The notes beneath the pieces were generated by a model. The model was not told the origin of the DNA. It ran no database searches and saw only the letters and a program-made list of their open reading frames with translations. From Diphasiastrum complanatum (taxonomy: Eukaryota; Streptophyta; Lycopodiopsida; Lycopodiales; Lycopodiaceae), in the NCBI GenBank assembly GCA_029204225.1, contig CM055098.1:47307939-47371938 (forward strand): 64,000 bases of DNA, in the 5' to 3' direction. Numbering within the stretch: the first letter of the stretch is position 1; each line of letters opens with the position of its first letter. Shown here piece by piece: positions 2,619-64,000 of this stretch. A program made the translations under genes and the position numbers.

Positions 2619-4895
2619 ATGGCGCATTTCTATGCAGATAATTCAAGCTTCATGTTCTATCACAGCACACCCTCCACTCGCTCAGACGCTTCTCTCATGG
2701 CTATAGCTCAGCAACTGCTTCAGAAACAACAGCACCATCAACACCAACAGCCACCGCCTGCGTCCGCTGATGGAAGTCAAGGCAGCAGTGGCATGACAGA
2801 AAATCCATGTCCAGTGACTCACTCTTGGAGAGGTGGGAGGACAAACTCCAGCCACGATCCATATTCTCTGCCCATCTCAAGATCCTGCTGCTCAGATGCT
2901 TTTGAGGATTTATCCTCCTCCAGCACCTCCTACTTCCTGGAGCCCACTTCTGTTCTGGATCTCTCTAGCCCATCTCTGGATTCCATGCACTCTCCCTTGA
3001 CTCTCAACGAGCAGCGATTCCAGGAAATCGAGCAATGCTTGCAGGAAGACGTGAGCCTGACAGAAAATCCCGTAATGAACAGATTTTCTACTGGCTTTGC
3101 CACCGAGCTTGCAACAGCTTCCAGCAGCAGACCTACTGACTGTGACGGAGATGTCCTTTACGAATCGGGAAAGATGGCTGACTTAAGAACAACAAGAGGA
3201 GCTACGTATTATCTGGAGGATCTGCAGGCTCTGCGATCTGGACAAAAGATTTTTTCTGATCAGAGCCAGCTGGGGATGGGCGATGGAAGCTCGGAGTGGA
3301 TGGATTGTCTGATGAATGATCTTCATGCAGAAGCGGTTGAAGTTGGAATAGCGTCATGTTTTGAGAGAAATCCCTGTGAGTCCACACACAGCTCGGAGCT
3401 TCCAGGCTATCCCTGCACGCCGGAGGAAAGTTGGAGGGAAGATTTTGCATTTGCTTGCTCTTCGGATCGGATTCCCCACACCTCCTGGACGCGAGACGCG
3501 TGCCCAGTTGATCTGCTCTCCGCATCATCGTCTGATCAGCTTCTCTCTTCTAGTAATTTCACCTCTCTAGCATTGCCACGGCAGCAGCCTCAGTATCCCT
3601 CGCATTTGCTAGCGCTGTCCAAACTTTGTCCACCTCAGGATCGCCCAGCAGGTCACGTTTTTGATAGAAGAGATGCGCTTTGTGTGTTGACAAGGGCAGG
3701 ATTGCTGGGAGTACATCTAGAGAGAAAAGGTGGCGATGAAGGTGTTAGATTGTTGCAACTTCTGATTGATTGTGTGGCAAGTATCGAAACAACCTCCATG
3801 GCAGGATCGTTAGCAACGCCAGGACGAGGAACATCGCATTGCACAAATGCCATGATGAAATTGAGAGAGCTTTCTTCTGCATACAGCGATCCGTTGCAAA
3901 GGGTAGCATCCCATTTCACAGACGCCATGGCTGCTCGCCTGGAAACCGATCCAGCAGCAGCAGCCCATGAACCCTCGAGGGATGAGAGCCTAGAGGATAT
4001 GGTGATGGCCTTTCGAGCGTTCAACGAAGCTTGTCCTTATATTAAATTTGCTCACCTCACAGCAAACCAAGCAATCCTGGAGGCGATGGAGACAGCAGAC
4101 AAGGTTCATATAATCGATTGTGGCATAGTTCAGGGCGTGCAATGGGCAGCTTTATTGCAAGCCTTCGCTACCCGGCCTGCGGGAGCCGTCCCTCCCAAGA
4201 TCAGAATCACCGGCATCGCGAGCCCCAAGCTCGGCACCGACCCATCCGCCGCCCTCGCTGCCACAGCAAAACGCCTCACCGAGTTCGCAAACCTCCTCAA
4301 CCTGCAATTTGAATTCTGTCCAGTTTCCACCAAGCTGGAGGATTTAGACCCATCCATGCTCAGATTAGACCACAACGAAGTCCTTGCAGTAAATTTTATG
4401 TTCGAGCTGCATCACCTTCTGGATGATTCTCTTCAACACCTCCGAAGAACTCTTAGGCTTGTGCAGCTCCTTAGCCCAGCAGTGATCACAGTGGCAGAAT
4501 TTGAGGCCAGCATAAATGCAGCTCCACTCCAGACCAGATTCCTCAACGCCTTCTGCTTCTATGCTGCGCTGTTTGATTCCCTGGATGAAACTATGGCCCG
4601 GGAGGATCCAGAGAGAGTCAAAGTCGAAAGACTATTCTTTGCAAAAGAGATTAAGAACATGATGGCTGCTGATGGGGCAGAAAGAAAAGAACGGCGAGAA
4701 AGTACCGATAATTGGAGGAGACTGATGGATAGAGCAGGCTTCAGGAGCGCACCGCTCAGCTACTATGCTATAAGTCAAGCTCGCCTGCTATTATGGCTGT
4801 ATTGCGAGAATTTTACACTGATGCAAGTGCCTGGATGCCTCTCCCTTTGCTGGCTGGAGCACCCCATTGTCACAGTCTCAGCCTGGCATTGCTGA
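2619..4895 (+). CDS. GRAS-family transcription factor, SCL4/SCL7 type
   Basis: A 758-residue single-exon protein; GRAS genes are commonly intron-less. The N-terminus carries LMAIAQQLLQKQQ (about residues 26-38) followed by a His/Gln/Pro-rich run, a signature I associate with SCARECROW-like 4/7. Residues about 75-345 are Ser-rich and probably disordered. The GRAS domain fills the C-terminal half: first leucine-rich region (LLQLLIDC near 378), VHIID at 496-500 within VHIIDCGIVQGVQWAALLQA, second leucine-rich region (VLAVNFMFELHHLLDD near 588), PFYRE-equivalent around 650-690 with ERVKVERLFF, then the SAW region with WRRLMDRAGF and a final SAWHC. GRAS proteins act in the nucleus as transcriptional regulators or co-regulators; SCL4/7 members are linked to stress responses. 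It is longer than typical angiosperm SCL4/7 proteins, mainly in the N-terminus. The frame has no lesions, so this looks like a functional host gene. Confidence 0.93.
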   Translation: MAHFYADNSSFMFYHSTPSTRSDASLMAIAQQLLQKQQHHQHQQPPPASADGSQGSSGMTENPCPVTHSWRGGRTNSSHDPYSLPISRSCCSDAFEDLSSSSTSYFLEPTSVLDLSSPSLDSMHSPLTLNEQRFQEIEQCLQEDVSLTENPVMNRFSTGFATELATASSSRPTDCDGDVLYESGKMADLRTTRGATYYLEDLQALRSGQKIFSDQSQLGMGDGSSEWMDCLMNDLHAEAVEVGIASCFERNPCESTHSSELPGYPCTPEESWREDFAFACSSDRIPHTSWTRDACPVDLLSASSSDQLLSSSNFTSLALPRQQPQYPSHLLALSKLCPPQDRPAGHVFDRRDALCVLTRAGLLGVHLERKGGDEGVRLLQLLIDCVASIETTSMAGSLATPGRGTSHCTNAMMKLRELSSAYSDPLQRVASHFTDAMAARLETDPAAAAHEPSRDESLEDMVMAFRAFNEACPYIKFAHLTANQAILEAMETADKVHIIDCGIVQGVQWAALLQAFATRPAGAVPPKIRITGIASPKLGTDPSAALAATAKRLTEFANLLNLQFEFCPVSTKLEDLDPSMLRLDHNEVLAVNFMFELHHLLDDSLQHLRRTLRLVQLLSPAVITVAEFEASINAAPLQTRFLNAFCFYAALFDSLDETMAREDPERVKVERLFFAKEIKNMMAADGAERKERRESTDNWRRLMDRAGFRSAPLSYYAISQARLLLWLYCENFTLMQVPGCLSLCWLEHPIVTVSAWHC

Positions 4896-6407: not shown

Positions 6408-6716
6408 TGTGAAGAATTTCAGATCATTAAGATCCAAAATATCCCTTTGATCTATGCTTAGAAAGACAAGCAAATCACCATCCTTGCCAATGTAGAAAAA
6501 CCAATATCTACACTATGAATGAGATGCAAACTCGAATAGATCTTGATCAAACATCAATCAAGACATAAAATAATGTTGATGTTCGTACACAAACAGTAAG
6601 CCACTGTATTTCACACGTGTGGATCTGAGAATAGCATTTAATGAGCATTCCACCAAGATATCAAGTATAGTGCACCAATGGATAGTAAAACCCAAAGAGA
6701 ACCATTTACAAGAATG

Positions 6717-6720
<4 letters not shown>

Positions 6721-6774
<54 letters not shown>
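6721..6774. repeat. (AG)n microsatellite inside the E2 LTR
   Basis: An uninterrupted AG dinucleotide run of about 54 bp. In the sense of the LTR (- strand) it is a CT run just downstream of the TATA box, so it would sit at the start of the element's transcript. Confidence 0.95.
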
Positions 6775-6775
<1 letters not shown>

Positions 6776-7013
6776 ATGTTTTCTCTTCCCATGAGTTACA
6801 TCGTTTTATAGCAGGTCCAAACCTAAATTCAAACTTTGGTTTCCTTCCATAATGAAAACCCTAGTATTTTTGTGACTAGATTCAATGTATTTTGAATCTC
6901 TTCAAAACTCATGTTCTATAGTTTCCCACACTTTCCAAAAGTGTTTATTCAAATGCTTTTAGACTAATATAACTGCTTTTAGTCAATTGCCAAATATACA
7001 AATATGACCAAAA

Positions 7014-23239: not shown

Positions 23240-25800
23240 AGGGCCCTCTTTGGGCCCATATTTTCTCTAATGGTTCTGCAAAGTCTGTCAAAAAGACAAA
23301 CAACATCAGAATCCATTCAGACATGAGGGAGTTCGTCCACTCAAATGTCTGTAGATCGATGAAAGTGGATTCGCTCTCAGGATCGAGGTATTTCTTGACG
23401 TTCACTGATGATTACAGCCGGATGACAATGATCTACTACCTAAAGAAAAAATCTGAAGTGTTTTACTCTTTCAAGATGTTCATGACATTTGTAGAGAGAC
23501 ACACCTCAAGAAAGATTCAGATCATCAGATCTGATAATGGAGGTGAGTACAAGAGCACAAAGTTTTCTAAATTCTGCCAAGAACAGAGAATAGAGCATCA
23601 ATTCACTCCTGTGTACACACCCGAATATAATGATGTCACAAAAAGAAGAAACATGACGTTGGTCAAAGGAGCCAGATGCATAATGGCATAGGCTCAATTG
23701 CCAAGTCAATTCTGGAATAAGGCAATAGTTGCAGTAGTACACCTGTAGAACAGGTCTACAATGACAGCCTTGGAAAACAAGACACCATACGAAATGTGGA
23801 CAAATAGAAAGCCTGATCTATAATACGTGCATGCATTTGGATGTGCAGCATACAAACACATTCCAAAAGAAAAAAGAAGCAAGCTCGATGAGAGCAAACA
23901 ATCATGGTCGGGTACTCGAATGGATCACAAGTGTATAGACTCTACAATCCAACCACAAAGAAGGCTGTTTCGAGTAGAGATGTGAAGTTCGATGAGTCCA
24001 CATTCCTTGGACTGAAGGATGAAAAAGGCCATGAGATCTTCACATTGCTTCCAATTCAAGAGGGAGATCGAGGACAAACGTCAAATCAGAATGCTGAGCC
24101 CCAGACTCTAGAGCAGCAAAAAGCAGCAGATCAACCCCACGAACAAAAAGCATTCGAGTAGTGATGAAACGGACCTAGAAGGTCAACAAGACAAAGAAGA
24201 CCTCCGAATCAAAATGCTGACAATCTTTAGTAGAGCGAAGACACAGAATTTGAGTATTGCAGCTTCACTGAAGAGCCAACAACATATCAAGAAGTTGTCC
24301 AGAGTCCAGAGGGGAATTTTGGAAGTAGGCAATGTTAGAGGAGATCGAATCAATGAGGCGAAACAAGGCATGGACACTAGAGCCACTGCCAGAAAATAAA
24401 AAGATTGTCGACTGTAAGTGGATATACAAAAGAAAAATGAAATCAGATGACACTGTTGGATGTTACAAAGCAAGGCTTGTCGAAAAGGGCTACACACAAA
24501 GGTACAGAGTCGACTATTTTGATAGGTATTCGCCAATTGTCAAAATGACAAGCATACGACTGCTCCTTGCATATGCTACACAACACAATCTGGAAATTCA
24601 CCAGATTGATATAAAAACAGCCTTTCTCCACAAAGATCTAGAAGAAGAAATCTTCATGAAGTGGCCTGAAGGATTTGAAGATCCCGACAATTGACAATAT
24701 GTTTGTCGGCTGCAGAGATGCATTTATGGTCTAAAGCAGGCATCATGAGCTTGGTACAAGAAGATCGATAGTCTTCTGAAGTCTCTAGATCTCAATCCTA
24801 TACAAGTAGACTACAATGTCTACATAAAGAGCGTAGAAAAAGATTTTGTGATTCTGACTATTTTCATGGATGATTCTTTTATGATAGGAAACTCCTTGAT
24901 GCTAGCTAAGGACATGAAGAGTCTAATTTCTGAAAATTATGAAATCATAGATCTGGGAGAAGCAACAAAATGCCTTCGGCTAGAGATCAGAAGAGATTGA
25001 ATAAAAGATGAAATGCACTTCAGTCAGTCAGAATACGCCAGAAAAATGCTGAAGCAGTATCAAATGATCGACTGCAAAAAAAAGACCACAACAATGATAG
25101 CTAGAGCTAAATTGACAAAGCAATATTGTCCAAAAATAGAGGAAGAAAAACAGAAGATGGAAGCTATACTCTATCAAAACCTAATCAGTAGTTTGATGAT
25201 GTACCTAACAATTTGTCCCAGACCCGATTTGACTTTCTTTGTTTATGCTTTAAGCCAATTCTCTTCCAATCCTGGCATGGCGCATTGGCAAATGGCAAAA
25301 TGAATCCTACAATATCTGAAGAGTACTCAAAATATCAATTAACCTACAAAGTAGACAACAAAAATGAAGGACTCGAGCTGCACCACTACAGTGATGCAAG
25401 TTGGGCGAGCTGCAAAGATGATAGCAAGTCCGTAACAGGAGGATGTCCAATGTGTGCGAAACAACAATCAGCTAGATATGCAGAAAGAAAACCTTGGTAG
25501 CTCAATCCTCATGCGAAGCTGAATACGTCGCAGTTTCAAAGATGACGAACGAGATAGTTTGGTTGCAGATGATGTTGGAGGCAATTGGCATAACACAAGG
25601 AGAACCATGCATGATGATGATAGATTGTCAAAGTGCCATATACATATCCCAGGATCTTGTCTTCCATTCAAAGACAAAACACATACCTCTGAAGTACCAT
25701 CACATTTGAGATTCGATCTCGAAAGGAGAGCTCCAGGTCCAGTACATAAAGTCTGAAGACATGATTTTATATCTACTCACGAAGCCGCTCGACAAGCCAC
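23240..25800 (+). pseudogene. Element C Copia pol, 5'-truncated and broken
   Basis: Reading starts inside integrase (RIHSDMREFVHSNVC; FLTFTDDYSRM; IIRSDNGGEYKS near 23540) and carries a stop in almost every domain. Blocks: integrase 23323-23691; connection 23904-24161; RT start 24332-24694 (KMKSDDTVGCYKARLVEKG; QIDIKTAFLHKDLEEEIFM), then a TGA; RT core with FMDDS in place of YVDD near 24870; RT end 25013-25303; RNase H 25340-25709 (HHYSDASWASCKDDSKSVT; SSCEAEYVAVSK). Gag and protease are absent: nothing Copia-like precedes about 23240. A different Copia lineage from A and from the E/B/G/D/F group. Confidence 0.88.
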
Positions 25801-25863
25801 TCTTCGCAAAGCAAAGAAAAGCAATTGGATTAAACATACAAAGTTGCAAGGTTCAAGAGGGAG

Positions 25864-26574
25864 TGTCAAAAAATGTGAACTCCTGCAACTTTGTCATGAA
25901 GCGAAGTTAAACGACACGAAGCGAAGTGAAGGTCGAATGGCGAAGAATTCGCGAAAGTCAAACATATCTCAAAAATCCCAAGACATGAAACAAACTGAAG
26001 CTCGAAGGTCGAATGATTTGCGAAATTCAAACATACCTCCAGGACCAAAAGACATGACACGACACGAAACAAAAAGAAAATGAAAGAAAATCTTTCGTGC
26101 TGCCAGCTGGCAGCTCAATGGGTGTGGTGTCTTGTACTTCATGCTCAATTGAAATAGTTAGCAATAACAGAGAATAACTAACGAAAGGTTTAACGTTAAC
26201 TACTCTTGTAATTCTGTGTTTAGCTATTTTGTAAACTCCACAAAGTGGAGATATAAACGCAATTTTGGATCAACACAGAAAGAATTTTTCAAGAGAGAAA
26301 AAGAAACGAAAATATTCTGCATAAAACTGCGCCAATGAGCAAAACACAATGATAGAGCTAAGCGTTAGGCCGCCAATGAGTGAGACACTGATCATCTTGC
26401 TCTAAACACAAAAACTGATAATACAGTTGCTCTCTTTTGCCCATCTCTTTAATTTTCGTTGTCTTGATTGCTAGAATGATTTATGTTTAGTGATTTGTAG
26501 TCACATGCCTAGGATTCTGTAAGCTTCTGCATAAGAAAACCAAACGAAAACAATCTGTTTGCGAAACAAATCCA
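25864..26574 (+). repeat. Element C 3' LTR
   Basis: Begins TGTCAAAAAATGTGAAC directly after the purine tract CAAGAGGGAG and ends near CAAATCCA, about 711 bp. It has a TATAAA box near 26250. It is matched in reverse orientation by 31429-32160. The first part holds Arg/Glu codon-like tandem motifs built on GAAGCGAAG / TCGAATG. Confidence 0.85.
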
Positions 26575-28063
<1,489 letters not shown>

Positions 28064-28716
28064 ATGGACAAAGATGATGTTCCATTGACTAGAGACATGG
28101 AAATATGTCCGGCATCACCAGGTAGTGATGACTCGAAAATCCGTCCAGCATCACCAGATAGTGATAAGGCCCTCGATTCTAATAAATTATTGCACACTCT
28201 GGGCAAAGCAATACTGGAACTTCACCAAAGTAATAAGCAACGTGATAACCAAATGCAAAACCTCTTTAACCAACTACAAGCTATCACCTCAACTAACTTG
28301 GGCTATCAACCAAAAGTATTTTCTGGTGATAAAAAATTCAAGCGCCCGGAAGTTGTTGAGGAGAGTGAATCGTTGGACGAGCTATTTTAGCTTGCACAAT
28401 GTCTAGAGAATAAGTAGATATCCTCGGTTCTATTGTTTCTGGAAGGCAAGGCCTCCTCTTGGTGGAGGGAACTTTCCACGAAACTGGTGACTGGGTTGAA
28501 TTCCTAACGGAATTCCTGTTGGAAGTAAATCTGATTTATGCGATGGTTAGATCTACACACGATGTGGTGTACTATAAAGAGGATCATCCACTTTTTAAGT
28601 TTCTACCAAAGCTTCAAACGGAACTAGTTACAAGAATGAATGCACTAAGGCTTACCCGACTAGTGCTCGAAATGGAAATGAAACTATCTAAAAATAAAAA
28701 AATAACCAATTCTTGT
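28064..28716 (+). pseudogene. Gypsy-type retrotransposon gag relic
   Basis: The first frame (28064-28390) encodes an acidic N-part with two PASPxSD repeats and a helix rich in Gln/Asn (LHTLGKAILELHQSNKQ). After two stops the same frame reads FLEGKASSWWRELSTK, the core of the retrotransposon gag family. A shift near 28480 then leads to WVEFLTEFLLEVNLIYAM (28459-28716), the second half of that domain. No zinc knuckle or pol follows. Assignment rests on the AxxWW...WxEFxxEF pattern, known from Ty3/Gypsy gag proteins. Confidence 0.6.
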
Positions 28717-28959
28717 TAAGGCTTACCCAACTAGCAAGGCATCTAAACTAGGACCTAGATTAACACCCAAAAGGGGAGGAAATAAGTTGTGGCTAACTAA
28801 TAATCAACAAATAAATCATGCCACAAATAAACCAATGAGAAGGAAGCAAGAGGAGGCTCGAGCACCTTCCCTCAAGCTATGCACCTTCCCAAAGGGAACA
28901 TAAATAAAATAGAGAGATATTCTCAAAATAGAAGGCAAGATAACTTTATCTCAAAAGTG

Positions 28960-29233
28960 TTATTTACATGGCAAATACCTCTCCTTCTATGGCAAGGAGG
29001 GTTTTCCATAAGTATCCACTAAGCCTTGGTGGTGCAGGTAAGGCCATGCACTGTTGATTGTTCAGCGAGCCATACCTTGGTGCCGCATTGGGTGCCCCTT
29101 GATGATAAAGATAAGAGGTTTGATAGGGATTCCTCTTCTGTTGTATGATCCGGGGGTTAAATGGGAAAAATGTTGTCCGTGCGATGATGCATTGCACAGA
29201 TGGGAGTATCGGATCTAGATGCAAAGAAGACAA
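28960..29233 (-). other. Open frame of 89 codons, unrecognised
   Basis: A Pro/Asn/Gln-rich peptide on the - strand (for example GAPNAAPRYGSLNNQQCM). It has no domain I know and no supporting context. It may be a chance frame. Confidence 0.2.
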
Positions 29234-29339
29234 CTGAGGGTAATCAGAGAAAACGACACGCTTGAAATCGATATCCAGCCAAGCAATCGTAAATTTGCGT
29301 GAAAATTTGAGCCGAAAAAGACCTATTCATAAAAAAAAA

Positions 29340-29625
29340 TTTGCACGTGTGGCGGAGTGGGAAGGAACACGTGTCGACTTGTGATTGGTCAAGATTAATG
29401 CGCCGTACCTAGAATGATTGATCTGACATCTGTCACATGCGAGAATGACACGCATCGAGGACGGATTGGTGCACATGTCCCAGCCCACGTGGCCTCATAA
29501 TTGGGTCATCATTGTTAGTATGGACATCCACGTGGACCAATCATCTGACGACACGTGTCTCGGCCATTTTTTCACATATGCAAAAATTTCGTTTATATAA
29601 GTCCTCGAAATTTTCATTTTTTTTG
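29340..29625 (+). promoter_or_regulatory. Promoter with five CACGTG boxes and a TATA box
   Basis: CACGTG occurs at 29344, 29368, 29486, 29529 and 29552, then TATATAAG at 29594-29601. A CCAAT motif is at about 29536. CACGTG is the plant G-box core, bound by bZIP and bHLH factors; ACACGTG forms are also ABA-responsive elements. Spacing of TATA to the ATG at 29910 implies a leader of about 280 nt containing long T tracts. The arrangement argues for a real RNA polymerase II promoter feeding the histone-like frame downstream. Confidence 0.6.
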
Positions 29626-29909
29626 CAAAATTTTTGGTTTTCGATCCCAATATCGCTCTCAAGCGCGCTCTCTCACCGTTCAAGCTTCCGCCCTCTCACA
29701 GTGTGCTCGAGTCCTATGCCGCTGGTAGTCCAATATCGCTTTCGAGCGCACATCTCTTTTCTTAAAATAATCTGTTTAGATCTTGCGCTCGAAACCAATA
29801 TTCAGTTCTGGTATTGATCTCAAGCACCCTTTTGTTGCAATTTTTTTTGTTTTCATCCACTTTTTTTTTGTTCAATTTTTTTTTTGTTAATTTTCTTCTT
29901 CTGAGAATA

Positions 29910-30941
29910 ATGGCCATGACCAAATCCACTACCCGTGCCATAATCACTGTATAGCCATCCCATTCTCATGTTCCCCCTGGTACTGGCCGTAGGCGTGGCA
30001 GGAAGCAGGTCTGGCTGAAGGAGATCAAAAAATTCCAGAGATCAACTGAATTGTTGATCTCTAGAGCTCCTTTCGGCCGATCTGTACGGAATGTCACTCT
30101 GTCACTTGGGCTGAATGTTCGTTTTGAGCTGATAGCCATGCAGGTCTTACAAAGTGCTGCAGAAGATTTTCTGTCCCAGTTTTTTGAGGATACTTGTCTT
30201 TTCGCATTGCATGGTAAGCGTGTCACCATCAAGCCAAAGGATTTCATCATTCTCAAAAGGCTTTGGGACAGATATTTTGTTCTGCATGTTGATAATGCCA
30301 GCACCTCCAGAGACCTGCCTCTGGATAGAACCAACTTGTCGACTACCTTTAGGAGGAAGAGGAAGCAGCCTGTCCCCAAAAAGGCTGAATCTCGAAGGCC
30401 AGTTGCTTCCCTTCCTCGTCTTGTTATTCATCCAGCTCCTCAGCAGGTTTCATCACCAAAAGTGTCAATCACCTAAGAGGAGCTACATAAAATAACAGAG
30501 AAATCTGTAAATATTGTTTCCACTTCTGTTTCTGCTCCTATACATAATCTTTTTGTTAGAGTTCCATACGATCCAGCCCAACTTTATTTTGATTTTGACC
30601 ATTATAATCAATACGAGGCCTACCTAGCTAATAAAATTGATCTTCTCGGCAACTTTTTTGATTTTTTTCTTCCAGATACACGTACAAGCTTTAGATTAGG
30701 TCCCAAATTTTGTGCCAAATTGAAAGATAAAACCTCAAAAATTTCAAATGTAATAGTAGAAGCCGAAGTTTCTTTTTTGCTAAATAGTATTAGTTTTGAT
30801 TCCCATGGTACAATTTTTGCTGTTAGTCCATTTTTCATGGGAGCAATAAAGGCGAAAGAAGCCAATTTTGAAAAGGTTGTCTATTTTATCGAATGCAATC
30901 CTGTGGCAAAAATTTATCTGATTCCATATGAGAATAGGTAA
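29910..30941 (+). pseudogene. Divergent histone H3-fold protein fused to a long unknown C-terminal region
   Basis: One frame runs from ATG at 29910 to 30941 (344 codons) with two internal stops: TAG at 29952 and TAA at 30474. The N-terminus, MAMTKSTTRA, echoes the MARTK start of H3. Codons about 28-118 match the H3 fold in order: a basic RRRGRK lead-in, EIKKFQRSTELLI (alpha-N, STELLI at codons 45-50), PFGRSVR, RF then AMQVLQSAAEDFL, FFEDT at 91-95, and HGKRVTIKPKD ending near 111. Loop 1 has the length of canonical H3, not the longer loop usual in CENH3. A basic linker (FRRKRKQPVPKKAE) follows, then about 150 codons with VRVPYDPAQLYFDFDHYN that I do not recognise. The final TAA overlaps a splice-donor-like GTAAGG at 30938, so the message could continue. 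Either a pseudogene or a captured gene whose stops are bypassed. Confidence 0.75.
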
Positions 30942-31428
30942 GGATTGCTCTTTTGTTTTTGTTGCTTTAATTTTGATTGTTGCATGATTTTGTTTTAATA
31001 AGTAAGGAATTCTTTTATAAATATGGATTTATCGATATTCGTATTTTGGTTGTTGCAATCGGCATTGGAGCCTAAACATTCTGTCTGTAAAGATAAATAA
31101 AGAGGGAGTATCAAATTTTCTATGTGTGCAATCTTCAATCTTCATGAGTAGATCTTCATTGATGGACAAAATGATGATTACCATTGCACGCTCATCCTTT
31201 TTTATCCACTCAGCTCTCCTCGGGTCTCTCTCTGGAGGCTGCACCTCTGAGAGTTTGGTCACCAATCAGATGCCTTCACTATCAGAAGTGTTTTGATTTT
31301 AAATTTCCACACCCTGTACTTTCTGCCATCAAGACTGATTGCTATTCTTGTCTGGATCGTTGTAGCCATATTATGTTGCCTAGAGAATTAGTGTTTAAAT
31401 ATCAGTAGTGATAACCTCATAGAGTGAG
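30942..31428. other. Unassigned stretch downstream of the histone-like frame
   Basis: No confident gene. A 74-codon frame at 31184-31408 (CFDFKFPHPVLSAIKTDC) could be a following exon if the donor at 30938 is used, but I find no strong acceptor. Confidence 0.35.
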
Positions 31429-32160
31429 TGGATTTGTTTTATGAACAGATTGTTTTTGTTTGGTTTTCTTATGTGGAAGCTTACAGGATCCTAGGCACAC
31501 GACTACAGATCACAGAACATAAATCATTCTAGCAATCAAGATAATGAAAATAAAAGAGATGGACAAGAGAGAACAACTGTATTGTCAGTTTTTGTGTTTA
31601 GAACGAGATGATCAGTGTCTCGCTCGTTGACAGCCTGACACTTAGCTCTATCGTTGTGTTCAGCTCATTGGTAGACTTTTATTCACAGCTATTTTCATTT
31701 CTTTTTCTCTCTTAAAAAATTCTTTTTGTGTTGATCCAAAATTACGTTTATATCTCCATTTTGTGGAGTTTATAAGATAGCTAAACATAGAATTACAAGA
31801 GTAGTTAACGTTAGTCAACTAGTTAGTTATTCTCTGTTATTGCTAAGTATTTTAGTTGAGCGTGAAGTACAAGACACCACGTCCGTTGAGCTGCTAGCTG
31901 GCAGTGCGAAATATTTTCCTTTGTTTTCTTTTTTTTTTTTGTGTCATGTCATGTCTTTTGGTCCTAGAGATATGTTTTAATTTTGCGAATCATTCGACCT
32001 TCGAGCTTCCCTTCATTTTGTGTCTTAGAGTTTTTGAGGTACGTTTGACTTTCACGAATTGTTCGCTATTCGACCTTCACTTTGCTTTGTGTCACTTCGA
32101 CCTTTGCTTTGCTTCGTGTCGCTTTGCGACAAAGTTGCAGGAGTTCACATTTTTTAATAG
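31429..32160 (-). repeat. Inverted copy of the element C LTR
   Basis: The reverse complement of this segment matches 25864-26574 over almost its whole length, including the TATAAA region and the CTGCCAGC palindrome area, with scattered substitutions. It is not followed by Copia coding sequence on either side. On the + strand it is directly followed by GCTTTGATACCA (32161-32172), the complement of TGGTATCAAAGC, which is on the wrong side for this LTR orientation. Confidence 0.8.
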
Positions 32161-32663
32161 CTTTGATACCAATATAAAGTCCTACACATAGGATACTATT
32201 CTAAGCATACCAATCAAAGCAACAACACAAGGGAACGGGTGGTAGATAAACCAGCCCAACCAAACCTAGATCGTGCGAATCTAGCCCCTAAGATATGGAT
32301 CAATCATAGTATGGAAAGAAAAATCACACTAGCAGCATGTAGCTACCAATCACAGAATCAAGCATACACTAGTGAGAACCCAATAGGTATACTTATACCC
32401 TCCAAGGCCCATGCACCACTAGTAGTGCACTGTGACACCTCACTGGAAACCTTTGTAGCCTATCTGGGCCATGTCATCCAGTTCACTAATGACTCATTGA
32501 TAGACCCATACCAACTCCACCACCATGTGTTAGACCTACAACTATTAATTATGACCATGTACACATAAGGGCCCCAATTCCCTTATAGTCACAATTAGCT
32601 TAAGGGTTTTTGGTCTACCGGTCCCTAGTGTGGATACGCTACCCGAGACTAGTCATGGGCATG
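32161..32663. other. Unassigned stretch, possibly an LTR remnant
   Basis: Begins with a reversed primer-binding-site sequence (GCTTTGATACCA), so the following 400-500 bp may be an LTR of another element whose interior is lost. The 109-codon frame at 32239-32568 has no recognisable features. Confidence 0.3.
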
Positions 32664-33074
32664 ACAATTATTACTCTTCATGATATGTCATATGTGATGT
32701 AGCTCTAGTATCAATCCACCAAGGATCATTGTCTCCATGATTAGCCAATAAACAAGATGACATTACCAAAGCATCATTTGAGATTTGTTCATCAACACCA
32801 TCTTCATCAATAGTTAGATTGGTTTGCTTCTCACCTTGATCTCTCTTCTTCTTGAAGCAATCAGTAGCAAAATGCCCTTTGATTCCACAATAGAAGCATT
32901 TTAACTTTGACCTATCTTTTTTTTTACCAACAAAAGTAGAAGGCTAACCTTGATCTTGACCATTTGACCACTTGCCTTTGCCATTGCCCTTGAATTTTCC
33001 TTTGATGAACATGGCCTCTTCACTTTTTCAGATGTTATTATAGAACCACCTCTTGCTTGAAGCCTACAAATTAG
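32664..33074 (-). pseudogene. E-family Copia gag/protease fragment
   Basis: The - strand encodes gag residues nearly identical to intact element E: EEAMFIKGKFKG, CFYCGIKGHFATDCFKKKR, NLTIDEDG and DPWWIDTRATSHMTYH. The protease DSGA is changed to DTRA, so the active site is lost, and one codon in the linker is a stop. It ends abruptly at 32664 and joins, head-to-head, the gag of element D at about 33075. Confidence 0.88.
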
Positions 33075-36000
33075 CTTGAATAGCCTTGGAGATGAGTTAT
33101 CCAATCTTGTACAAAGCTTTGCTATTCAAGATGCACTACCTTCCATAGACAAGCTTCATAGCGTGCTTGTAGCCGAGGAGAGTAGGATCCTTCATGTCAA
33201 GCAAAGGATTGGATCCTGAAAGTTGCATGATGGTGATGAGAAGGCCAACTTCTCAAGCAAGGGAAAGGCAAAGTCAAAGAAGAAGATCCAACACAAGGAG
33301 ACCAAGAATGATGATCAAGCTCCAAATGTGGAAAGAAGAACAAAGCCAAACTCAACTGATTTTTTTGTGGAAAGAAGGGGCACTTTGCATCCGAGTGTTT
33401 CAAGAAGAAGTATGCACAAGGAGAGAGCAAACAAGGCAACCTCACTCTTGAGGAAGATGAGGATGAAGTGGATTCATCCTTGATGGCTTCTACATCAACA
33501 TCAAAGAGCTACTCCAATGACACATGGTGGATTGATAGTGGGGCTAGTTCCCACATGACATTCCAAAAGGAATTTTTCTCAACTCTTGTACCTTTTGTAG
33601 GTTGTAAAAAGTCTATTCTAACAGCAAGTGATCAAGAATGTAGAATAGATGGAGTGGGAACTATTCTCTTAAGTCTTGGATCCTCTAAAAGAGTAGATCT
33701 TGATAATGTACTCTATGTTCCTACACTCACTAAGAATTTGTTAAGTGTAGGACAATTGATGGATGATGGCTTAGATGTCCATTTTAAGCAAGGAGTTTGC
33801 TCCATAATGATGAATAATACTTGCATTGTAAAGGGATTCAAGCAAAGAAGGCTTTTTAAGCTTGATGCTAATGTTTTTCTTGGAAGTGTGAACATGGTGA
33901 AGGAGGAGCTCAATCAAGTGGAGCTTTGGCATAAGAGGTTGGGCCACCCCAACTTCAAATCTATGGAGATGCTATGCACCAAGGATCTTGCTCTCGGCCT
34001 TCCAAAGACACTCTCAAAGTGTGGAAAAAGTTGTGAAGCTTGTAGCCTCTCAAAGGCACACAAGCTACCTTTTGATATCTCTTCCACTAGATCTACAAAA
34101 GCATTAGATCTTATTCATAGTGATGTGCACTCTTTTTCTCAAGAATCTAATGGAGTAAAGTGTTTGAAGCTTTTGTTAAGTTCAAAACTCTAGTTGAAAA
34201 CCAACTTGATGCTAGAATTAAAGTATTGAGGAGTGATAATGGTGGAGAGTATATCTCCACCAAGATGATAGAGTTTTGTAAATCCAATGGCATTAAGAGA
34301 GAACTTACATGTACTTATAGTCCTCAACAAAATGGAATAGCCAAGAGGATGAATAGAAAACTATGTGAGTGTGCTAAGGCTTTAAGGTTAGATGCATCTC
34401 TACCTAAGTCCTTTTGGGGAGAGGCTATTATTTGTGCAACTTATTTGTGTAATAGATTGCCATGTAAGCCCATTGGAGGCATAACATCTTATGAGGCTCT
34501 ATTTTGTAAGAAGCCGAATCTTAAAGATCTAAGAATTTTCGGATCTACTTGCTATGTTTTTCAAGCATTAGATACAAGAAAAAAGGATGATCCTACTTCT
34601 ATTAAAGGGATTTTTGTTGGTTATGCTGGAAATGGCAAAGGATATAGAGTCTATAATCCTATCACTAAGAGGATTTTAGTGAGTAGAGATGTTACTTTTG
34701 ATGAAGGTAACTACTTCAAGTTGAATGAGAAAGCTTCTAATCCATCTTATGTCAAGGATCTTGTAAGGTTTGAGGAGGAGCCTACATGTGATCAAGATCT
34801 TGAAGATCCATCTCAAGATCCAAGGACTCCAATGAGATCTACAAGAAGGAAGGTCGAGCCCTCAAGACTCACCTATATTGACAAAGGTGAACAAAGGGAA
34901 GATCTACATTCACTTACCTCTTACACTTTTCTTACTTTTATGTTTGATGAGCCAAGTTGCTTTGAAGAAGATATGGAGTCACAAGAATGGAAAGATGCCA
35001 TGCAAAAGGAGTATGATGCTCTTATGGAAAATCATACATGGAAGCTTGTGGACCTTCCTCAAGGAAGAAAGCCACTTGAGTGCAAATGGATCTATAGATT
35101 GAAGTACAATCAAGATGGGAGCATCAACAAACACAAGGCGAGGCTAGTGGCAAAGGGATTCTTGCAAACCAAGGGAGTAGATTTTGGTGAATCCATAAGG
35201 TTTAGAGCAAGTACCTAGAGCTTGGTACTCTAGGTTGAATACCTTCTTAAACTCTATTAAGTTTGTTGTAAGTGCTTATGATCCTTCTTTGTACTTAAGA
35301 TTTAATGATGATAAAATCATCATTCTCATTTTGTATGTTGATGACATTATCCTTAGTGGAAATGATCTTGATGGTATACAAGAAGTGAAAGTAGCATTGT
35401 TTAAGGAGTTTAAGATGGTAGATCTTGGTAATCCTCATTTCATATTAGGAATAGAAGTTTCAAGAGGCAAGGATTTGAGTTTTATTTGTCAATCCAAATA
35501 TGCTTCTTCTATCTCAGAAAAGTTTGAAATGAAAGATTGTAAAGGAGTAGAAACTCCTATGGAGCAAAATGTAAAAGTTTTCAATAGTGATGATGAAGCA
35601 TCCTTTGAGGACATCACACTATATATGAGACTTGTAGGCTCTTTGATCTATCTTACTATATCTAGACCTGATCTAAGTTATAGTGTAGGCAAACTAAGCC
35701 AATCTATGCAAAATCCATTGGTTTGTCACTAGAAAAATACAAAAAGGGTGTTGAGGTACATCTCGGCCACCAAAAACTTTGATATTTTATATGATTGATC
35801 TAATCTAGCCTTAAGGGCATATTTGGATGCTAATTTTGCATGTGATAGGGTGGATAGGAGGTCCACAAGTGCTTTTGTTACCTTTGTTTGCAATGGCATA
35901 GTGTCTTGGCTTTCCAAAAAGCAAGATACTATCTTTCTATCTTCAACAGAATCGGAATACAAGGCACTAACATCCACAACAAAGGAGATTCTATGGCTGA

Positions 36001-36292: not shown

Positions 36293-36930
36293 TGTTAGAA
36301 TTTAGCAATTTCCATAAGGTTTTTGATGAATATTAGACATCTATGTGGATTCACACGTGTGAGGACCTGTCCACACGTGTGAAATGACACTTGTAATATT
36401 CAGATCTATTTTGATTAGCTTTCATTTGAGTCTAATATGACATCTCCTAAATTATAAGAGTTAGGTCCTAGATTGTAGGAATCTAGAAGGTCAACACAAA
36501 CCACCAATGGATAATGTGGCAAACTTGATAGATCTTATCCAAAGTGGATATGGATAAGTACAATGAGCTGTCCTACACGTGCTGGATGCAGCTTAGAGAG
36601 ATATTATGATGAATTTGTACTTGATACATGATGGATCCATTATTGAGCTAATGATGAGAAATCTTGGTTTGTGAAGCTATCATTGTGTTTTGACTCTCTT
36701 AAGCACTTTCTTTGTGGATGAATGCTTTGTATAATAAGTAAATTATTTCTCTGTTATCAGACCGTATAGTAGCTATACTTCACACATGTGAAGCCGTGGA
36801 TCATCTTTTTTTATTGTTCTTGCTTGGAAACACAAAGATTGTCAAGTAGAAGCTAGATTTGGAAGCTAGTCTTGATATAGATCAAGATCCTAAGTTACCA
36901 ATCACTCTTTTTGATCATTTGTAGATCAAT
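36293..36930 (+). repeat. Element D 3' LTR (right end approximate)
   Basis: Starts TGTTAGAATTTAGC after the purine tract GAGGAGGAG. CACACGTGTG occurs twice (36352-36361 and 36372-36381), and a related TTCACACATGTGAAG lies near 36780. A TATAATAA-like box is near 36729. No second LTR is available, so the right end is an estimate. Confidence 0.65.
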
Positions 36931-43140: not shown

Positions 43141-43793
43141 TGTGAAAAATTGTCAACTAGTAGTATTTTCCTAACTTGAGATTTTGTAGGCCTATGGCCA
43201 AATAAAAGTTAGAGATAGGTTCATACATGTATGTAGAGGCCCAAAGTATGTGTACACTACTTTTGAGGTCACATTAATTAGAGGAGGTCGAGTGTGGAGC
43301 TCTTCTATTGGCTCATAATTTGGTGCATTCCTATTTGACCAAATTTCTAGGTAGATGGGTGAAGCCTATTGGACCCCAATTTTAGCCTATCATAAGACAA
43401 GTGGCCAAGAGGCACTATGGCTGCTATAAATAGCCATCTCCACGAGTATGTACACATCTCATTTTCATTCTATTGAATGAATGTTATGCTCTTTGAAGAT
43501 CCATCTTCTTCTCTCTCACTTTTTTGTTCATATCTTGCATTCTAGCCACTAGAATTGTGATTTCTTTGTTGCTATGGCTTCACACGTGTGAAATGCAGGT
43601 TGTAGGCTCTGAAGTACGGACAGGGACAGCAAGTTTCTGTTTGTGGAAGCTTATGATCAGATCTTGATGTTTAGTTGATGTTTAGTATGCTTAACATCAC
43701 AATTTCTATCATTTTTTCAATCTAGATGTGCATAACTTCCATGGCCAAGATCTTTATGAAACTTTAGCATCTTTTGGATCTGAGTTTTTCACA
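43141..43793 (+). repeat. Element E 5' LTR
   Basis: TGTGAAAAATTG...TTTTTCACA, 653 bp. It has a TATAAATA box at about 43425 and CACACGTGTG at 43581-43590, downstream of the TATA box and so within the transcribed leader. The 6-bp termini TGTGAA/TTCACA are inverted repeats. Confidence 0.97.
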
Positions 43794-44402: not shown

Positions 44403-47400
44403 ATGGCTACAAATGGAGGCTACATGTTGGAAAGCAATGATAGGCTTACCTCCCTCAACTATTCTACTTGGAAAGTAAGGATGGAGTCTTTGCTTGAGAT
44501 GAATGAGTTGATGGATATTGTTGTAGGTGTGGAGGAGAGACCTTTGGCACCTCAAGAACAATTGAGGTATGACAAGAGGGCAAAGAAAGCCCTTCACATG
44601 ATCAAGATGAATGTGACAAATGAGCTTATCAAAGAGGTTGGTAAGTGCACATCATCTAGTGAAGCTTGGGAAGCCTTGAAGAAGGTTTATGAATCCAAGT
44701 CTACTTCTAGAGTGTTGACTTTAAGAAGGCAAATCTTTTCTTGTATGCAAAAGAAGAGTGAGAGTGGACATGCTTTTGTTTTGAGAGTTAAAGCATTGAA
44801 TGATGAGTTAGCATGCATTAATGATGGCATAAATAATGAGGAGCTTGTTCAAGTGATTCTCAATGGCTTGTTGGATGATCATGCTAATCTTGTTCAAAGT
44901 TATGCTATCCAAAAATGTTTACCAAGTGTTGGAGACTTGCAAGAGGTCTTGTTGGCTGAAGAATTCAGGTTGCAAGCAAGAGTGGGAGCATCTTCTACAT
45001 CTCAAGGAGGAGAAGAGGAGGCAATGTTCTCTAAAGGCAAGTTCAAGGGCAAAGGTAAAAGCAATTGGTCTAAAGGGCAAGACCAAGGTGAGCACTCTAC
45101 TTTTGGCAAAAAGAAGGATAGATCTAAGCTAAAATGTTTCTATTGTGGAGTCAAAGGGCATTTTGCTAGCGATTGTTTTAAGAAAAAGAGGGATCAAGGG
45201 GAAAAGCAAACCAATCTAACTATTGATGAGGGTGGGGATGAGCTTCTTTCAAATGATGCTTTTGTTATGTCATCTTGCTTGTTGGCTAATCATGGAGACA
45301 TTGATCCTTGGTGGATTGATAGTGGAGCCACTTCTCATATGACATATCATAAAGAGTATTTTTCATCTTTAATGGCATTTGATGGTGATAGGAAGGTAAT
45401 CTATACCGCAAATGATGGTGAGTGTGCAATCAAGGGGATTGGCACAATTCCTATTTCACTTTCTACAAATAGGAATATAGAATTGAAAGATGTTTTGCTC
45501 ATTCCATCCATTACCAAGAACTTACTTAGTGTAAGCCAAATGCTTGACAAAGGATTCAAAGTTGAGTTTGATGGTGATGCTTGCTTGATCAAAAAGGGGT
45601 GTAGTATCATTGCAAAAGGGAAAAGGCAAGGGAAATTGTTCAAGCTTGATGCATGTGTTGTTGCTAACCAAGTTGGATGCATGGCAAATGAACAAATGTC
45701 AATTCAAGAGGTATGGCATAAAAGGATGGGACATCTCAACTACAAGGCCTTGGAGGAAATAGCCAAAAAGGAGGTAGTAAGGGGACTTCCCAAGTCTCTT
45801 ACTTGCTTGAATCATGTTTGTGAAGAATGTGCTTTGTCTAAATCACATAGATTGCCATATACTAGATCTATATCTAGATCTAAGATGCCTTTTTCTCTCT
45901 TGCATTCGGATATTCATGGTGTTACTACAATTAGCAATGGAGGTGCTAAGATGTATGTAACTTTCATTGATGATTTTAGTAGATTTTGTTGGGTTTATCT
46001 ACTAAAGAGCAAGGATGAGGTGTTTGATGTGTTTGTCAAGTTCAAAGTTGCTATTGAGACTCAATTTACAACCAAAATCAAATGCTTGAGGAGCGACAAT
46101 GGTGGTGAATACATTTCTAACAAATTCAAAGCCTTTTGCGATGAGCATGGGATCAAGAGGGAGTACACATGTCCAAGAACACCACAACAAAATGGAGTGG
46201 CCGAGAGGAAGAATAGAACCTTGTGTGAGAGTGCAAAGGCAATGAGATTGAATGCTAATCTTCCTAAACCTTTTTGGAGTGATGCTTTGTTGTGTGCAAA
46301 TTTCCTATGCAATAGATGGCCAAGTGTTGTATTGGAAGGAAAAACCCCTTTTGAAGCTTTGTTTGGTATGAAGCCTAATGTCAAGTTTCTAAGAACTTTT
46401 GGATGCATTTGCTACTTCAACATTACTCTTGATGATAGAACTAAGGAGGATCCATCTTCAAGAAAGGGCATTTTTGTTGGTTATAGTGAAGTAAGCAAAG
46501 CATATAGGATTTATGTTTCTTCAATCAAGAAAGTGTTCACAAGTAGGGATGTCATTTTTGATGAAAGTAACATTCCAAAAGTTGTTTCAAGTGATGATGG
46601 TGTTGTTGCAACTAATGTGCTTGATGACAATGGAGTTGATGACACATTGGATGTGGATGTTGAAGAAGCCTCTTCAAGTCAAATTCCAAGGAGAACTCCA
46701 AGGCATAAAGTGAAACCCTCAAGGCTCACTTATGATGGCAAAGGTAAGCAAGTGGTGGATGGATCCAACTATGCTTTCCTAACTTCTTTTGATGTACCTT
46801 CATGTGTAGATGAAGCAAGGCAAAAAGAGGAATGGATCCAAGCAATGGATCTTGAGTTTGAAGCACTTATGAAGAACAACACATGGAGATTGGTGGAGCT
46901 TCCAAAGGGCAAAAGTGCAATTGGATGCAAATGGATCTTCAAGGTAAAGACAAATCAAGATGGATCTATCAACAAGTTGAAGGCAAGGTTGGTGGCTAAA
47001 GGTTATGCTCAAGAGCATGGCATTGACTATGAGGAAACCTTTGCACCCGTGGCAAAGATGGTGAGCATAAGAGTAATCATTTCCCTTGCAACTCTTTATG
47101 GATGGGATCTTTGGCAATTAGACATTTCTAATGCTTTCTTGAATGGTGATCTTGAAGAGGAAGTCTACATGGAGCAACCCGAGAGCTATGTTTCTCATAG
47201 CAAGCCTAATCATGTGTGTTTTCTACAAAAAAGTTTGTATGGTCTTAAGCAAGCACCAAGGAGTTGGTATGCTAGGCTTAACTCTTTTCTACTTTCTCAA
47301 AACTTCACTATGAGTGAGTATGATCATTCACTTTACTTTAGAATTAGTGCTAATGATGTTACAATCCTTCTAATTTATGTGGATGACATTATTTTAAGTG

Positions 47401-48353
47401 GAGGGAACAAGGAAGATATAGAAGATATCAAGAAAGCACTAAAAAAGGAATTTGAAGTGCATGATCTTGGTCTTTTGAGCTATATCTTAGGAATAGAAGT
47501 AATTAGAACTTCTCAAATCACTTTTATTTCACAAGAGAAGTATGCTATTTCTATTCTCAATAGATTTCATATGGTAGATGCAAATCCTATTGATACACCT
47601 ATGGAATCACATGTAAAGCTAACTATAAGAGGTAATGAAAGATCCTTCGAGGACATTACTCTCTATAGGAAGCTAATAGGTTCTCTTATATATCTAACCA
47701 TCACAAGACCTGATTTATCTTATTGTGTTGGTAGATTAAGCCAATTCATGCAAGATCCTAGCATAGAACATTGGAAACTAGGAAAGAGGATCTTGAGATA
47801 CATCTCGGGAACAAAAGATTTTGGCATTGTTTATAGAGGCTCATCACCTAACTTATTTGGTTTTTCAGATTCAGATTTTGCAGGAGACCTTATGGATAGA
47901 AAATCCATAAATGCACATGCTATTTTCATAGGTGATGGAGCTATCTCATGGATGTCGAAGAAACAAGCAACTATATCACTTTCTTCTAGTGAGGCCGAGT
48001 ACAAAGCTTTGACATCATGCACAAAGGAGATGGTGTGGATCAAGAGGATGATTATGGAGCTTCATTTGCTGGATTTTTCAGAGAGTCCAATCATCTTTTG
48101 TGACAACCTTTCAGCCCAAAGTCTAGCAAGCAATCCGGTTTTCCATGCAAGGAGCAAACATATCGAGGTGGCTTACCATTTTGTGAGAGAACAAGTGTTG
48201 GCAAAAGAGATCAAGCTTGAACATGTCCCATCAAAGGAATGTGTGGCTGATATCTTTACCAAAGCATTGGGAAAGGACTTATTTTTCAAGCATAGAACAA
48301 GTCTTGGTGTACTTTCTAAATCTATGCTAAAACTAGTTGAAGAGGGAGTGTGA
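44403..48353 (+). CDS. Element E gag-pol polyprotein, 1316 residues, intact
   Basis: A complete Ty1/Copia polyprotein. Gag fills about residues 1-300 (WKVRMESLLEMNELMDIVV near 24; CCHC zinc knuckle CFYCGVKGHFASDC at about 245-258). Protease has WWIDSGATSHM, with DSG near 305. Pre-integrase HHCC: WHKRMGHLN near 437 and CEEC near 472. Integrase catalytic triad: D503 (HSDIHG), D565 (SDNGGEY) and E601 (GVAERKN), a D-35-E spacing. RT: KARLVAKGYAQ, QLDISNAFLNGDLEEEVYM, LKQAPRSWYARLN and the catalytic YVDD at 992-995. RNase H: FSDSDFAGD near 1156, SSSEAEYKAL, then the tail HARSKHIEVAYHFVRE. All catalytic residues are present. The start is the first ATG after a leader of about 600 nt and matches the start of B and G. 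The TGA stop (48351-48353) lies inside the 3' LTR. Gag and pol share one frame with no shift, as is usual for Copia. Confidence 0.96.
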   Translation: MATNGGYMLESNDRLTSLNYSTWKVRMESLLEMNELMDIVVGVEERPLAPQEQLRYDKRAKKALHMIKMNVTNELIKEVGKCTSSSEAWEALKKVYESKSTSRVLTLRRQIFSCMQKKSESGHAFVLRVKALNDELACINDGINNEELVQVILNGLLDDHANLVQSYAIQKCLPSVGDLQEVLLAEEFRLQARVGASSTSQGGEEEAMFSKGKFKGKGKSNWSKGQDQGEHSTFGKKKDRSKLKCFYCGVKGHFASDCFKKKRDQGEKQTNLTIDEGGDELLSNDAFVMSSCLLANHGDIDPWWIDSGATSHMTYHKEYFSSLMAFDGDRKVIYTANDGECAIKGIGTIPISLSTNRNIELKDVLLIPSITKNLLSVSQMLDKGFKVEFDGDACLIKKGCSIIAKGKRQGKLFKLDACVVANQVGCMANEQMSIQEVWHKRMGHLNYKALEEIAKKEVVRGLPKSLTCLNHVCEECALSKSHRLPYTRSISRSKMPFSLLHSDIHGVTTISNGGAKMYVTFIDDFSRFCWVYLLKSKDEVFDVFVKFKVAIETQFTTKIKCLRSDNGGEYISNKFKAFCDEHGIKREYTCPRTPQQNGVAERKNRTLCESAKAMRLNANLPKPFWSDALLCANFLCNRWPSVVLEGKTPFEALFGMKPNVKFLRTFGCICYFNITLDDRTKEDPSSRKGIFVGYSEVSKAYRIYVSSIKKVFTSRDVIFDESNIPKVVSSDDGVVATNVLDDNGVDDTLDVDVEEASSSQIPRRTPRHKVKPSRLTYDGKGKQVVDGSNYAFLTSFDVPSCVDEARQKEEWIQAMDLEFEALMKNNTWRLVELPKGKSAIGCKWIFKVKTNQDGSINKLKARLVAKGYAQEHGIDYEETFAPVAKMVSIRVIISLATLYGWDLWQLDISNAFLNGDLEEEVYMEQPESYVSHSKPNHVCFLQKSLYGLKQAPRSWYARLNSFLLSQNFTMSEYDHSLYFRISANDVTILLIYVDDIILSGGNKEDIEDIKKALKKEFEVHDLGLLSYILGIEVIRTSQITFISQEKYAISILNRFHMVDANPIDTPMESHVKLTIRGNERSFEDITLYRKLIGSLIYLTITRPDLSYCVGRLSQFMQDPSIEHWKLGKRILRYISGTKDFGIVYRGSSPNLFGFSDSDFAGDLMDRKSINAHAIFIGDGAISWMSKKQATISLSSSEAEYKALTSCTKEMVWIKRMIMELHLLDFSESPIIFCDNLSAQSLASNPVFHARSKHIEVAYHFVREQVLAKEIKLEHVPSKECVADIFTKALGKDLFFKHRTSLGVLSKSMLKLVEEGV

Positions 48354-49001
48354 AAAATTGTCAACTAGTAGTATTTTCCTAACTTGAGATTTTGTAGGCC
48401 TATGGCCAAATAAAAGTTAGAGATAGGTTCATACATGTATGTAGAGGCCCAAAGTATGTGTACACTACTTTTGAGGTCACATTAATTAGAGGAGGTCGAG
48501 TGTGGAGCTCTTCTATTGGCTCATAATTTGGTGCATTCCTATTTGACCAAATTTCTAGGTAGATGGGTGAAGCCTATTGGACCCCAATTTTAGCCTATCA
48601 TAAGACAAGTGGCCAAGAGGCACTATGGCTGCTATAAATAGCCATCTCCACGAGTATGTACACATCTCATTTTCATTCTATTGAATGAATGTTATGCTCT
48701 TTGAAGATCCATCTTCTTCTCTCTCACTTTTTTGTTCATATCTTGCATTCTAGCCACTAGAATTGTGATTTCTTTGTTGCTATGGCTTCACACGTGTGAA
48801 ATGCAGGTTGTAGGCTCTGAAGTACGGACAGGGACAGCAAGTTTCTGTTTGTGGAAGCTTATGATCAGATCTTGATGTTTAGTTGATGTTTAGTATGCTT
48901 AACATCACAATTTCTATCATTTTTTCAATCTAGATGTGCATAACTTCCATGGCCAAGATCTTTATGAAACTTTAGCATCTTTTGGATCTGAGTTTTTCAC
49001 A
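48349..49001 (+). repeat. Element E 3' LTR
   Basis: 653 bp, read as identical to the 5' LTR, with CACACGTGTG at 48789-48798. It supplies the last codon's G and the stop codon of the polyprotein. Confidence 0.97.
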
Positions 49002-49569: not shown

Positions 49570-50975
<1,406 letters not shown>

Positions 50976-63001: not shown

Positions 63002-64000
63002 TGTGAAAAAAATAAAAAGGACCAAGAGTGGATCCTAATTTGATCCTCAAGAGGGATTGGTTGTCAGATTACTTGATCTATCAATCTACTTGAGATAAAG
63101 ATCAATCTAGATCAATTCTAGACACAAAATCCTAACAAGAACAATCATTAATTGAAGGTAGGTGTACTTTCTGGTTTCACACGTGTGAAACACTGTCTGA
63201 GTAAAGACTCCAACCTGAAAATCAAGTACACATTGATAGAACCTCAAAACAATCAAAACAAATGTAGACAAATGGAGAGAATCACTCAAAATTGCTTCCA
63301 AACCCAAGATTGGTGTCTCACATTGATTATGGCCAAATAAGCCTCTATATATACACTTTTGGAGCTCGAGGTACTGATCATGCATCAGATCTCACACGTG
63401 TGAGAATGCCTTGTGACCATCATGCAATTTGACACTTGGATCAAAACTTTCCATTTTGGACATTTTTGGTCTATTTTCCTACTATACGGAGATCTTCATG
63501 GAAATCTTCTAGAAGCAAAAACTCGCCTACTTCAGCTATTTCCACACGTGTGAGTTGTCCTCTACACAATGTGACACCTATTCAAAATATTTGGCTCATG
63601 CAATCATTAGATTGGTGCCATGTGTCATATCTCTAGAAAACTAGTTTTTGGCCATTTTACCCACTAGAACTTGAATTAAATCATATGTACAACATATATG
63701 ATTATGGTACATGAAAAGTACACTAGTTTCACACGTGGGAACAGGCTCCACACATGTGTGTGTATCCTATATACAAGATTTTTGGCCTCTACCAAGCTTA
63801 TTTTTTGCATTTTTCACAGTTGGGAACGTTTCTCATTCAAAATAGACAACCTTCAGTATTTTTTCTCTCTTTGCATTTGTGCAAAAAAGCCGAAGGTGTT
63901 GAAAAAATTGATATTTTTGAACTGTGCATAAGTTGACTTCTTCAAAATAATTGAACGGAAGAAGCCGAAGGCAAGTGTCGTAGTTTTCAGAAAAATGTGA
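63002..64000 (-). repeat. Element F 5' LTR (outer end uncertain, may run past the window)
   Basis: Starts (+) TGTGAAAAAAATAAAAAGG beside the primer site. CACACGTGTG occurs at 63178, 63393 and 63543, with degenerate copies near 63730 and 63752. No outer boundary or partner LTR is visible, because the 3' end of F is lost. The last 150 bases carry GCCGAAGG...TGTTG motifs also seen near 52975-53310. Confidence 0.55.

Follow-up and report, generated by a model that had tools for sequence, protein, structure and literature searches.

A broken and strongly altered histone H3 gene between decayed retrotransposons of the clubmoss Diphasiastrum complanatum

Diphasiastrum complanatum is a clubmoss (Lycopodiaceae). 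In a 64,000-nucleotide stretch of its DNA, the whole of which is called the window here, one reading frame opens in the manner of histone H3 and then runs on well past the H3 part. The question raised by this locus is what kind of gene the H3 part once was, and whether the rest of the frame belonged to it. The frame was found as claimed in the preliminary description: it covers 344 codons at 29910-30941 on the + strand, with stops at codon 15 (29952-29954) and codon 189 (30474-30476), and a terminal TAA closes it. The H3 motifs quoted for it (STELLI, PFGRSVR, FFEDT and KRVTIKPKD) are also present in the order claimed. The locus is made up of the following parts.

29344..29603, + strand: putative promoter with CACGTG boxes at 29344, 29368, 29486, 29529 and 29552, a TATA-like box at about 29592, and GATTGGTC/GACCAATC boxes (predicted from sequence)
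29910..30005, + strand: shortened H3-like N-terminal tail starting MAMTKSTTRA, with the in-frame stop 29952-29954 (sequence)
30006..30263, + strand: H3 histone core, ungapped and identical to canonical H3 at 42 of 86 positions (Pfam, PDB sequence search, alignment)
30267..30440, + strand: basic linker with RRKRKQ, running from DRY to HPAP (alignment to P0006)
30474..30476, + strand: in-frame stop at the linker/tail boundary, within the range that supports the GC break (30419-30501, with 30484 as its best position)
30477..30938, + strand: AT-rich open tail of 154 codons, ending at a donor-like TAG/GTAAGG (reading frame, composition)

On sequence, the presence of a divergent, broken H3 domain is certain, and the locus reads as a histone H3 gene that is broken and has changed strongly. 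The piece 29955-30473 matched the Pfam family Histone (PF00125) with E 3.5e-23 and 82.6 bits against a cut-off of 26.4, so the H3 assignment lies above chance in the profile search proposed for it. The same piece had 178 matches among PDB sequences, the best with E 9.3e-20 over H3 residues 46-131; among the 60 matches listed of the 178, 59 were named H3 and one only "histone domain-containing". A protein search returned 6 hits from 81 candidates, namely five H3-like proteins and P0006, and a comparison with plasmids gave no match. In four H3-like proteins (P0001, P0003, P0004 and P0005), loop 1 has one residue more than in the H3 of the window, with which they have the motif HGKRVTIKPKD in common. 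The core occupies codons 33-118 of the frame and aligns with canonical H3 from alpha-N to alpha-3 without a gap (42/86 identical, 49%). It retains KRVTI, PKD and the Arg of RF, which we take to be residues with histone contact roles. An AlphaFold model of the H3 piece from eight sequences has four helices in H3 order (piece residues 17-36, 39-51, 55-87 and 94-115) at low confidence (mean pLDDT 58), and Foldseek with this low-confidence model gave 22 matches, best E 3.3, with no histone among them.

Signs of past constraint on the core are modest. Its 86 codons are free of gaps and stops despite 44 positions that differ from H3, and its amino-acid changes are less drastic than those of simulated neutral drift (mean BLOSUM -0.14 versus -0.59, sd 0.25), a modest signal of constraint. 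When neutral drift was simulated to 43% identity, beyond the 49% seen, 78 of 1000 runs were still stop-free; therefore, that the core has stayed open argues no more than moderately for past selection. The ungapped alignment would also point to past constraint, to a moderate degree at most, the simulation having covered substitutions. As for length, the 173-codon H3 piece was stop-free in 3 and 2 of 4000 runs under two Markov models. Comparable stop-free runs are found nearby in 26580-31430, both on the - strand: one of 166 codons in a CT repeat and one of 153 codons that lies antisense to the H3 part. Open length is thus a weaker sign than the Markov figures imply.

Canonical H3 ends shortly after alpha-3, whereas the present frame continues for 70 codons beyond the core to the stop at 30474. 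The only relative of this linker found among the 81 candidates was P0006, the 99-aa protein O6H91_10G071800 of Diphasiastrum complanatum, which is identical at 38 of 50 positions starting from DRY, directly after the H3 core. Behind the aligned 50 residues, 8 follow in the window (RLVIHPAP) versus 40 in P0006 (ending VNHPAP). Both thus end V.HPAP, and the identity of the last six residues (5/6) was equalled in 14 of 100000 shuffles. Since the linker also occurs in one clubmoss protein, it is not an accident of this copy, and recurrence of the basic extension in a clubmoss protein is well supported by the alignment. In the annotated P0006, the sequence before DRY reads MTCVRMTCV and not an H3 core, so the join of H3 and linker is seen only at this locus. 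P0006 could in turn be fragmentary, or its gene wrongly predicted. It is likely that the H3 part and the linker represent one gene family, seen together in this copy alone. Of the H3 fusion proposed earlier, what stands is that a divergent H3 domain is extended at its C-terminal end, and that the linker part of this extension recurs in one clubmoss protein; the join of linker and H3 is known from a single copy.

The tail differs from the linker in composition and in that the searches made gave no relative. We take it to have once been coding, firmly so for its front part and less so for its rear. All 154 codons are stop-free where 8-10 stops are expected, a result reached in 0 of 4000 runs with each of two Markov models, and the GC content varies by codon position (0.45/0.31/0.23) to an extent that 0 of 5000 shuffles matched. 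By parts, the periodicity was reached by 2 of 5000 shuffles at 30477-30674, by 16 at 30561-30938 and by 565 at 30675-30938. The same test did not mark the H3 piece (1888/5000), the H3 core (420/5000) or the linker (3716/5000), and it is therefore not a general detector of coding sequence here. The only in-frame ATG of the tail is at 30837. No relative of the tail was found up to E 10 among proteins of 85-270 aa (18 candidates), and the read-through frame gave 2 hits among 2070 candidates of 189-600 aa, both to the H3 part only, with no tail-bearing relative. Pfam gave no match of any kind to the tail and NCBIfam none; the best PHROGs match had E 0.026, and none of the 9 viral and 139 prokaryote contig pattern matches was confirmed. 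Six matches to PDB sequences (best E 0.012) were judged to be chance. The structure model of the tail has a mean pLDDT of 39.

A change in base composition separates the two stretches. Within the frame, the change in GC is best placed at 30484, where the content falls from 0.47 to 0.32 (2lnLR 24.9; 500 permutations, with a scan step of 4, reached 15.1 at most). The support interval of this point takes in the stop 30474 as well as position 30440, at which the alignment with P0006 stops. The H3 core has a GC3 of 0.48 and the linker one of 0.44, as against 0.23 for the tail; GC3 is 0.50 in the GRAS gene of the window, 0.32-0.39 in three Copia ORFs, and 0.23 and 0.33 in two ORFs labelled Ty3-like by eye. 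The break and the contrast in GC3 favour two sources, with which an old fusion of two sources is compatible. Accordingly, the 225 further codons described as following the H3 motifs are not one unit, as they consist of a linker with a known relative and a tail with a composition break between them; for the tail, the databases and protein size ranges searched likewise gave no recognised match.

Splicing is unlikely to remove the stop at this join. With coarse splice weights, no donor in 30261-30474 combined with an acceptor up to 30700 (60-400 nt apart) keeps the frame of the tail, and an intron across stop 30474 is also contradicted by the periodicity, which is already present from 30477. The donor-like site at the end of the tail (30938) is one of two above threshold in 29500-31420 and, with 30214, one of the best there, the best acceptor-like site having its exon start at 30676 (same coarse weights). 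As AGGTAAG is about as frequent in the window as expected (8 observed, 6.95 expected), the site at the tail end alone proves nothing. A frame-keeping intron of 462 nt (30214-30675, frame by hand), which lies beyond the limits of the splice scan, would delete alpha-3 and the linker together with the stop and was treated as chance.

A good promoter had also been claimed for the frame. The TATA-like box and the five CACGTG boxes are indeed present upstream, and inverted arms lie among them at 29367-29390 and 29535-29558. However, this claim has a basis in sequence alone, and since CACGTG is over-represented throughout the window (23 observed versus 2.81 expected), the boxes are suggestive only. 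Palindromes resembling CACACGTGTG are repeated at 36354-36379 and 63180-63737, neither of which aligns with the H3 promoter region.

The retrotransposon setting of the locus is as the preliminary description had it, with Copia domains on either side and LTR arms flanking the gene. The nearest elements are the following.

23323-23688 and 24332-24691, + strand: Copia integrase piece and reverse transcriptase piece, respectively (Pfam), of the same element as the LTR 25864..26574
25864..26574, + strand: 3' LTR of a decayed Copia element (repeat comparison; LTR ends by eye)
28064..28900, + strand: decayed gag-like frames upstream of the H3 locus (by eye)
31429..32159, - strand: LTR of the same Copia family, upper end approximate (identical at 615 of 728 aligned bases, some of which are flanking sequence)

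Against Pfam, the gag-like frame at 28064-28387 gave weak matches only (0.078 and 0.11), and that at 28414-28716 gave none. The rest of the window includes an open 1316-codon Copia gag-pol frame at 44403-48353 with nine Pfam matches. Near it lie 300-nt direct repeats (43141-43440 and 48349-48648) that are 100% identical, and frame and repeats together are probably a recent insertion. A GRAS-family gene at 2619-4895 (758 aa open, GRAS domain E 5.4e-113) was the only clear match to a host-gene family among the 9 ORFs scanned with Pfam. Long CT/GA microsatellites occur at 27420-27535, 50137-50430, 50752-50905 and about 6711-6778, and Rfam gave 0 matches at gathering scores.

It has been suggested that a mobile element captured the gene. 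If so, a copy of an H3 gene would have been moved by the element, and the tail would be element sequence. The locus does have an LTR on each side, the two being oppositely oriented members of one Copia family, gag-like frames adjoin it, and the GC3 of the tail, 0.23, equals that of one of the two ORFs called Ty3-like by eye. A single element bounded by inverted repeats of 700 bp was considered and rejected: each arm seems to be the LTR of a Copia element of its own, because the left one is accompanied by a polypurine tract and by pol upstream, and the right one has its own decayed gag-like start (by eye), leading leftwards from the - strand LTR. Moreover, no direct repeat family above 25 nt occurs in 25000-36000, and no long repeat pair was found to enclose the H3 locus alone. 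The 13 inverted pairs in 28700-31430 are all of 15-24 nt; the two that enclose the gene (28813/30990, 84%; 29371/31279, 74%) are judged to be chance. No further copy of the H3 or the tail piece exists in the 64-kb window, and when 26575-31428 was compared in all six frames with the remainder of the window, there was no match at 0.01. As the gene is not enclosed by long terminal repeats, the searches made lend capture no support, and we regard it as improbable. Still less probable is a decayed centromeric H3 (CENH3), the other origin suggested earlier. The divergence of the core to 49% identity, the short and odd N-terminal tail, the likeness of VWLKEI to GWLKEI of human CENP-A and a Pfam match to CENP-T_C (E 1.4e-6) that, at 28.8 bits, barely passes the cut-off of 28.1 would all fit such an origin. 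However, when canonical H3, human CENP-A and Arabidopsis CENH3 were used as yardsticks, the core scored 81.6, 77.0 and 70.1 bits, respectively. Loop 1 has no insertion and needs gaps in both centromeric alignments and none against H3, and the core keeps, like H3, the Phe of RF where CENP-A and CENH3 have Trp. The centromeric reading is thus not favoured.

The main choice concerns the tail. In one reading, the H3 domain and the basic linker formed a single protein with the tail, a C-terminal domain whose fold would be unknown, and the gene was later broken by two stops. Such a protein might act by analogy with macroH2A, a histone bringing a large non-histone domain into chromatin. That one frame runs throughout with only one stop between linker and tail, that coding periodicity begins directly behind stop 30474, that no ATG precedes 30837 in the tail and that no Markov run equalled its stop-free length all speak for this reading, and they weaken the case for a separate tail. 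The separation is supported by the GC change at the join, by the GC3 of the tail as opposed to 0.44-0.48 in the H3 core and linker, and by P0006, which ends before the tail would begin; neither the protein size ranges nor the viral and prokaryote contigs searched gave a confirmed relative of the tail. A three-part gene consequently appears a possible though doubtful explanation. More speculative again is the idea of a clubmoss family of H3 variants with basic linker and unknown-fold C-terminal domain and with intact members elsewhere, which would be an H3 counterpart of macroH2A.

The best explanation, to which we give about an even chance, is a pseudogene of an H3 variant that carried a basic extension at its C-terminus, the tail most likely being a separate AT-rich coding fragment. 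The H3-variant part of this explanation is supported by the H3 core in Pfam and PDB and by the linker shared with P0006 up to a point before the GC break. The parent was probably an H3 variant gene of the clubmoss lineage. Before it decayed, the gene would have encoded a nuclear protein of H3 fold in which a short N-terminal tail preceded the core and the linker formed a basic C-terminal extension, presumably as a single protein. Through the kept H3 core, it would most likely have paired with H4 and then entered nucleosomes at some sites, and the extension may have added a nuclear-import signal or a contact with DNA or chromatin. The tail would have been set against the 3' end of the gene by a rearrangement, for which the shared frame is a one-in-three chance. 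The present copy would then be a decayed one, broken by two stops and sited between decayed retrotransposons. If true, a conserved C-terminal extension of H3 in an old lineage of vascular plants would be a new histone layout and would test how far the H3 C-terminus tolerates extension; the present basis is a single broken copy, together with one protein related to its linker. Among the titles and abstract openings of the literature searched, no clubmoss H3 fusion is described. A land-plant survey that includes lycophytes reports two H3 variants as general and counts CenH3 apart (PMC5809374).

Compared to canonical plant H3, the window has an ungapped core over H3 residues 46-131 and a start that resembles MARTKQTARK. 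It differs in that the core is preceded by 32 codons rather than 45, in the loss of K9, and in a frame with two in-frame stops that runs on into the basic linker. With CENH3 and CENP-A it shares the character of a fast-evolving H3 relative with an unusual N-terminal tail, unlike them in loop 1, at the Phe position and in its lower score against these yardsticks. O6H91_10G071800 resembles it in 38 of 50 linker residues and the V.HPAP end, and is unlike it in lacking an H3 core in its 99 aa, in its 40 aa instead of 8 and in having no tail. P0008, a long charged protein of 532 aa on a 23-kb contig, likewise has an H3 fold in a longer chain, although the fold lies at its C-terminus and neither linker nor tail is matched. 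Its start, NDDHNCGVYV, recalls what we take to be a cysteine protease motif, and it is possibly a viral histone fusion. MacroH2A, which is named in PMC9145170, provides a precedent for a large C-terminal domain on a core histone, although the histone is H2A and not H3 and the tail of the window has no Pfam match. The giant-virus histone fusions of the same paper (PMC9145170) also carry, as the frame described here does, a histone fold within a longer chain.
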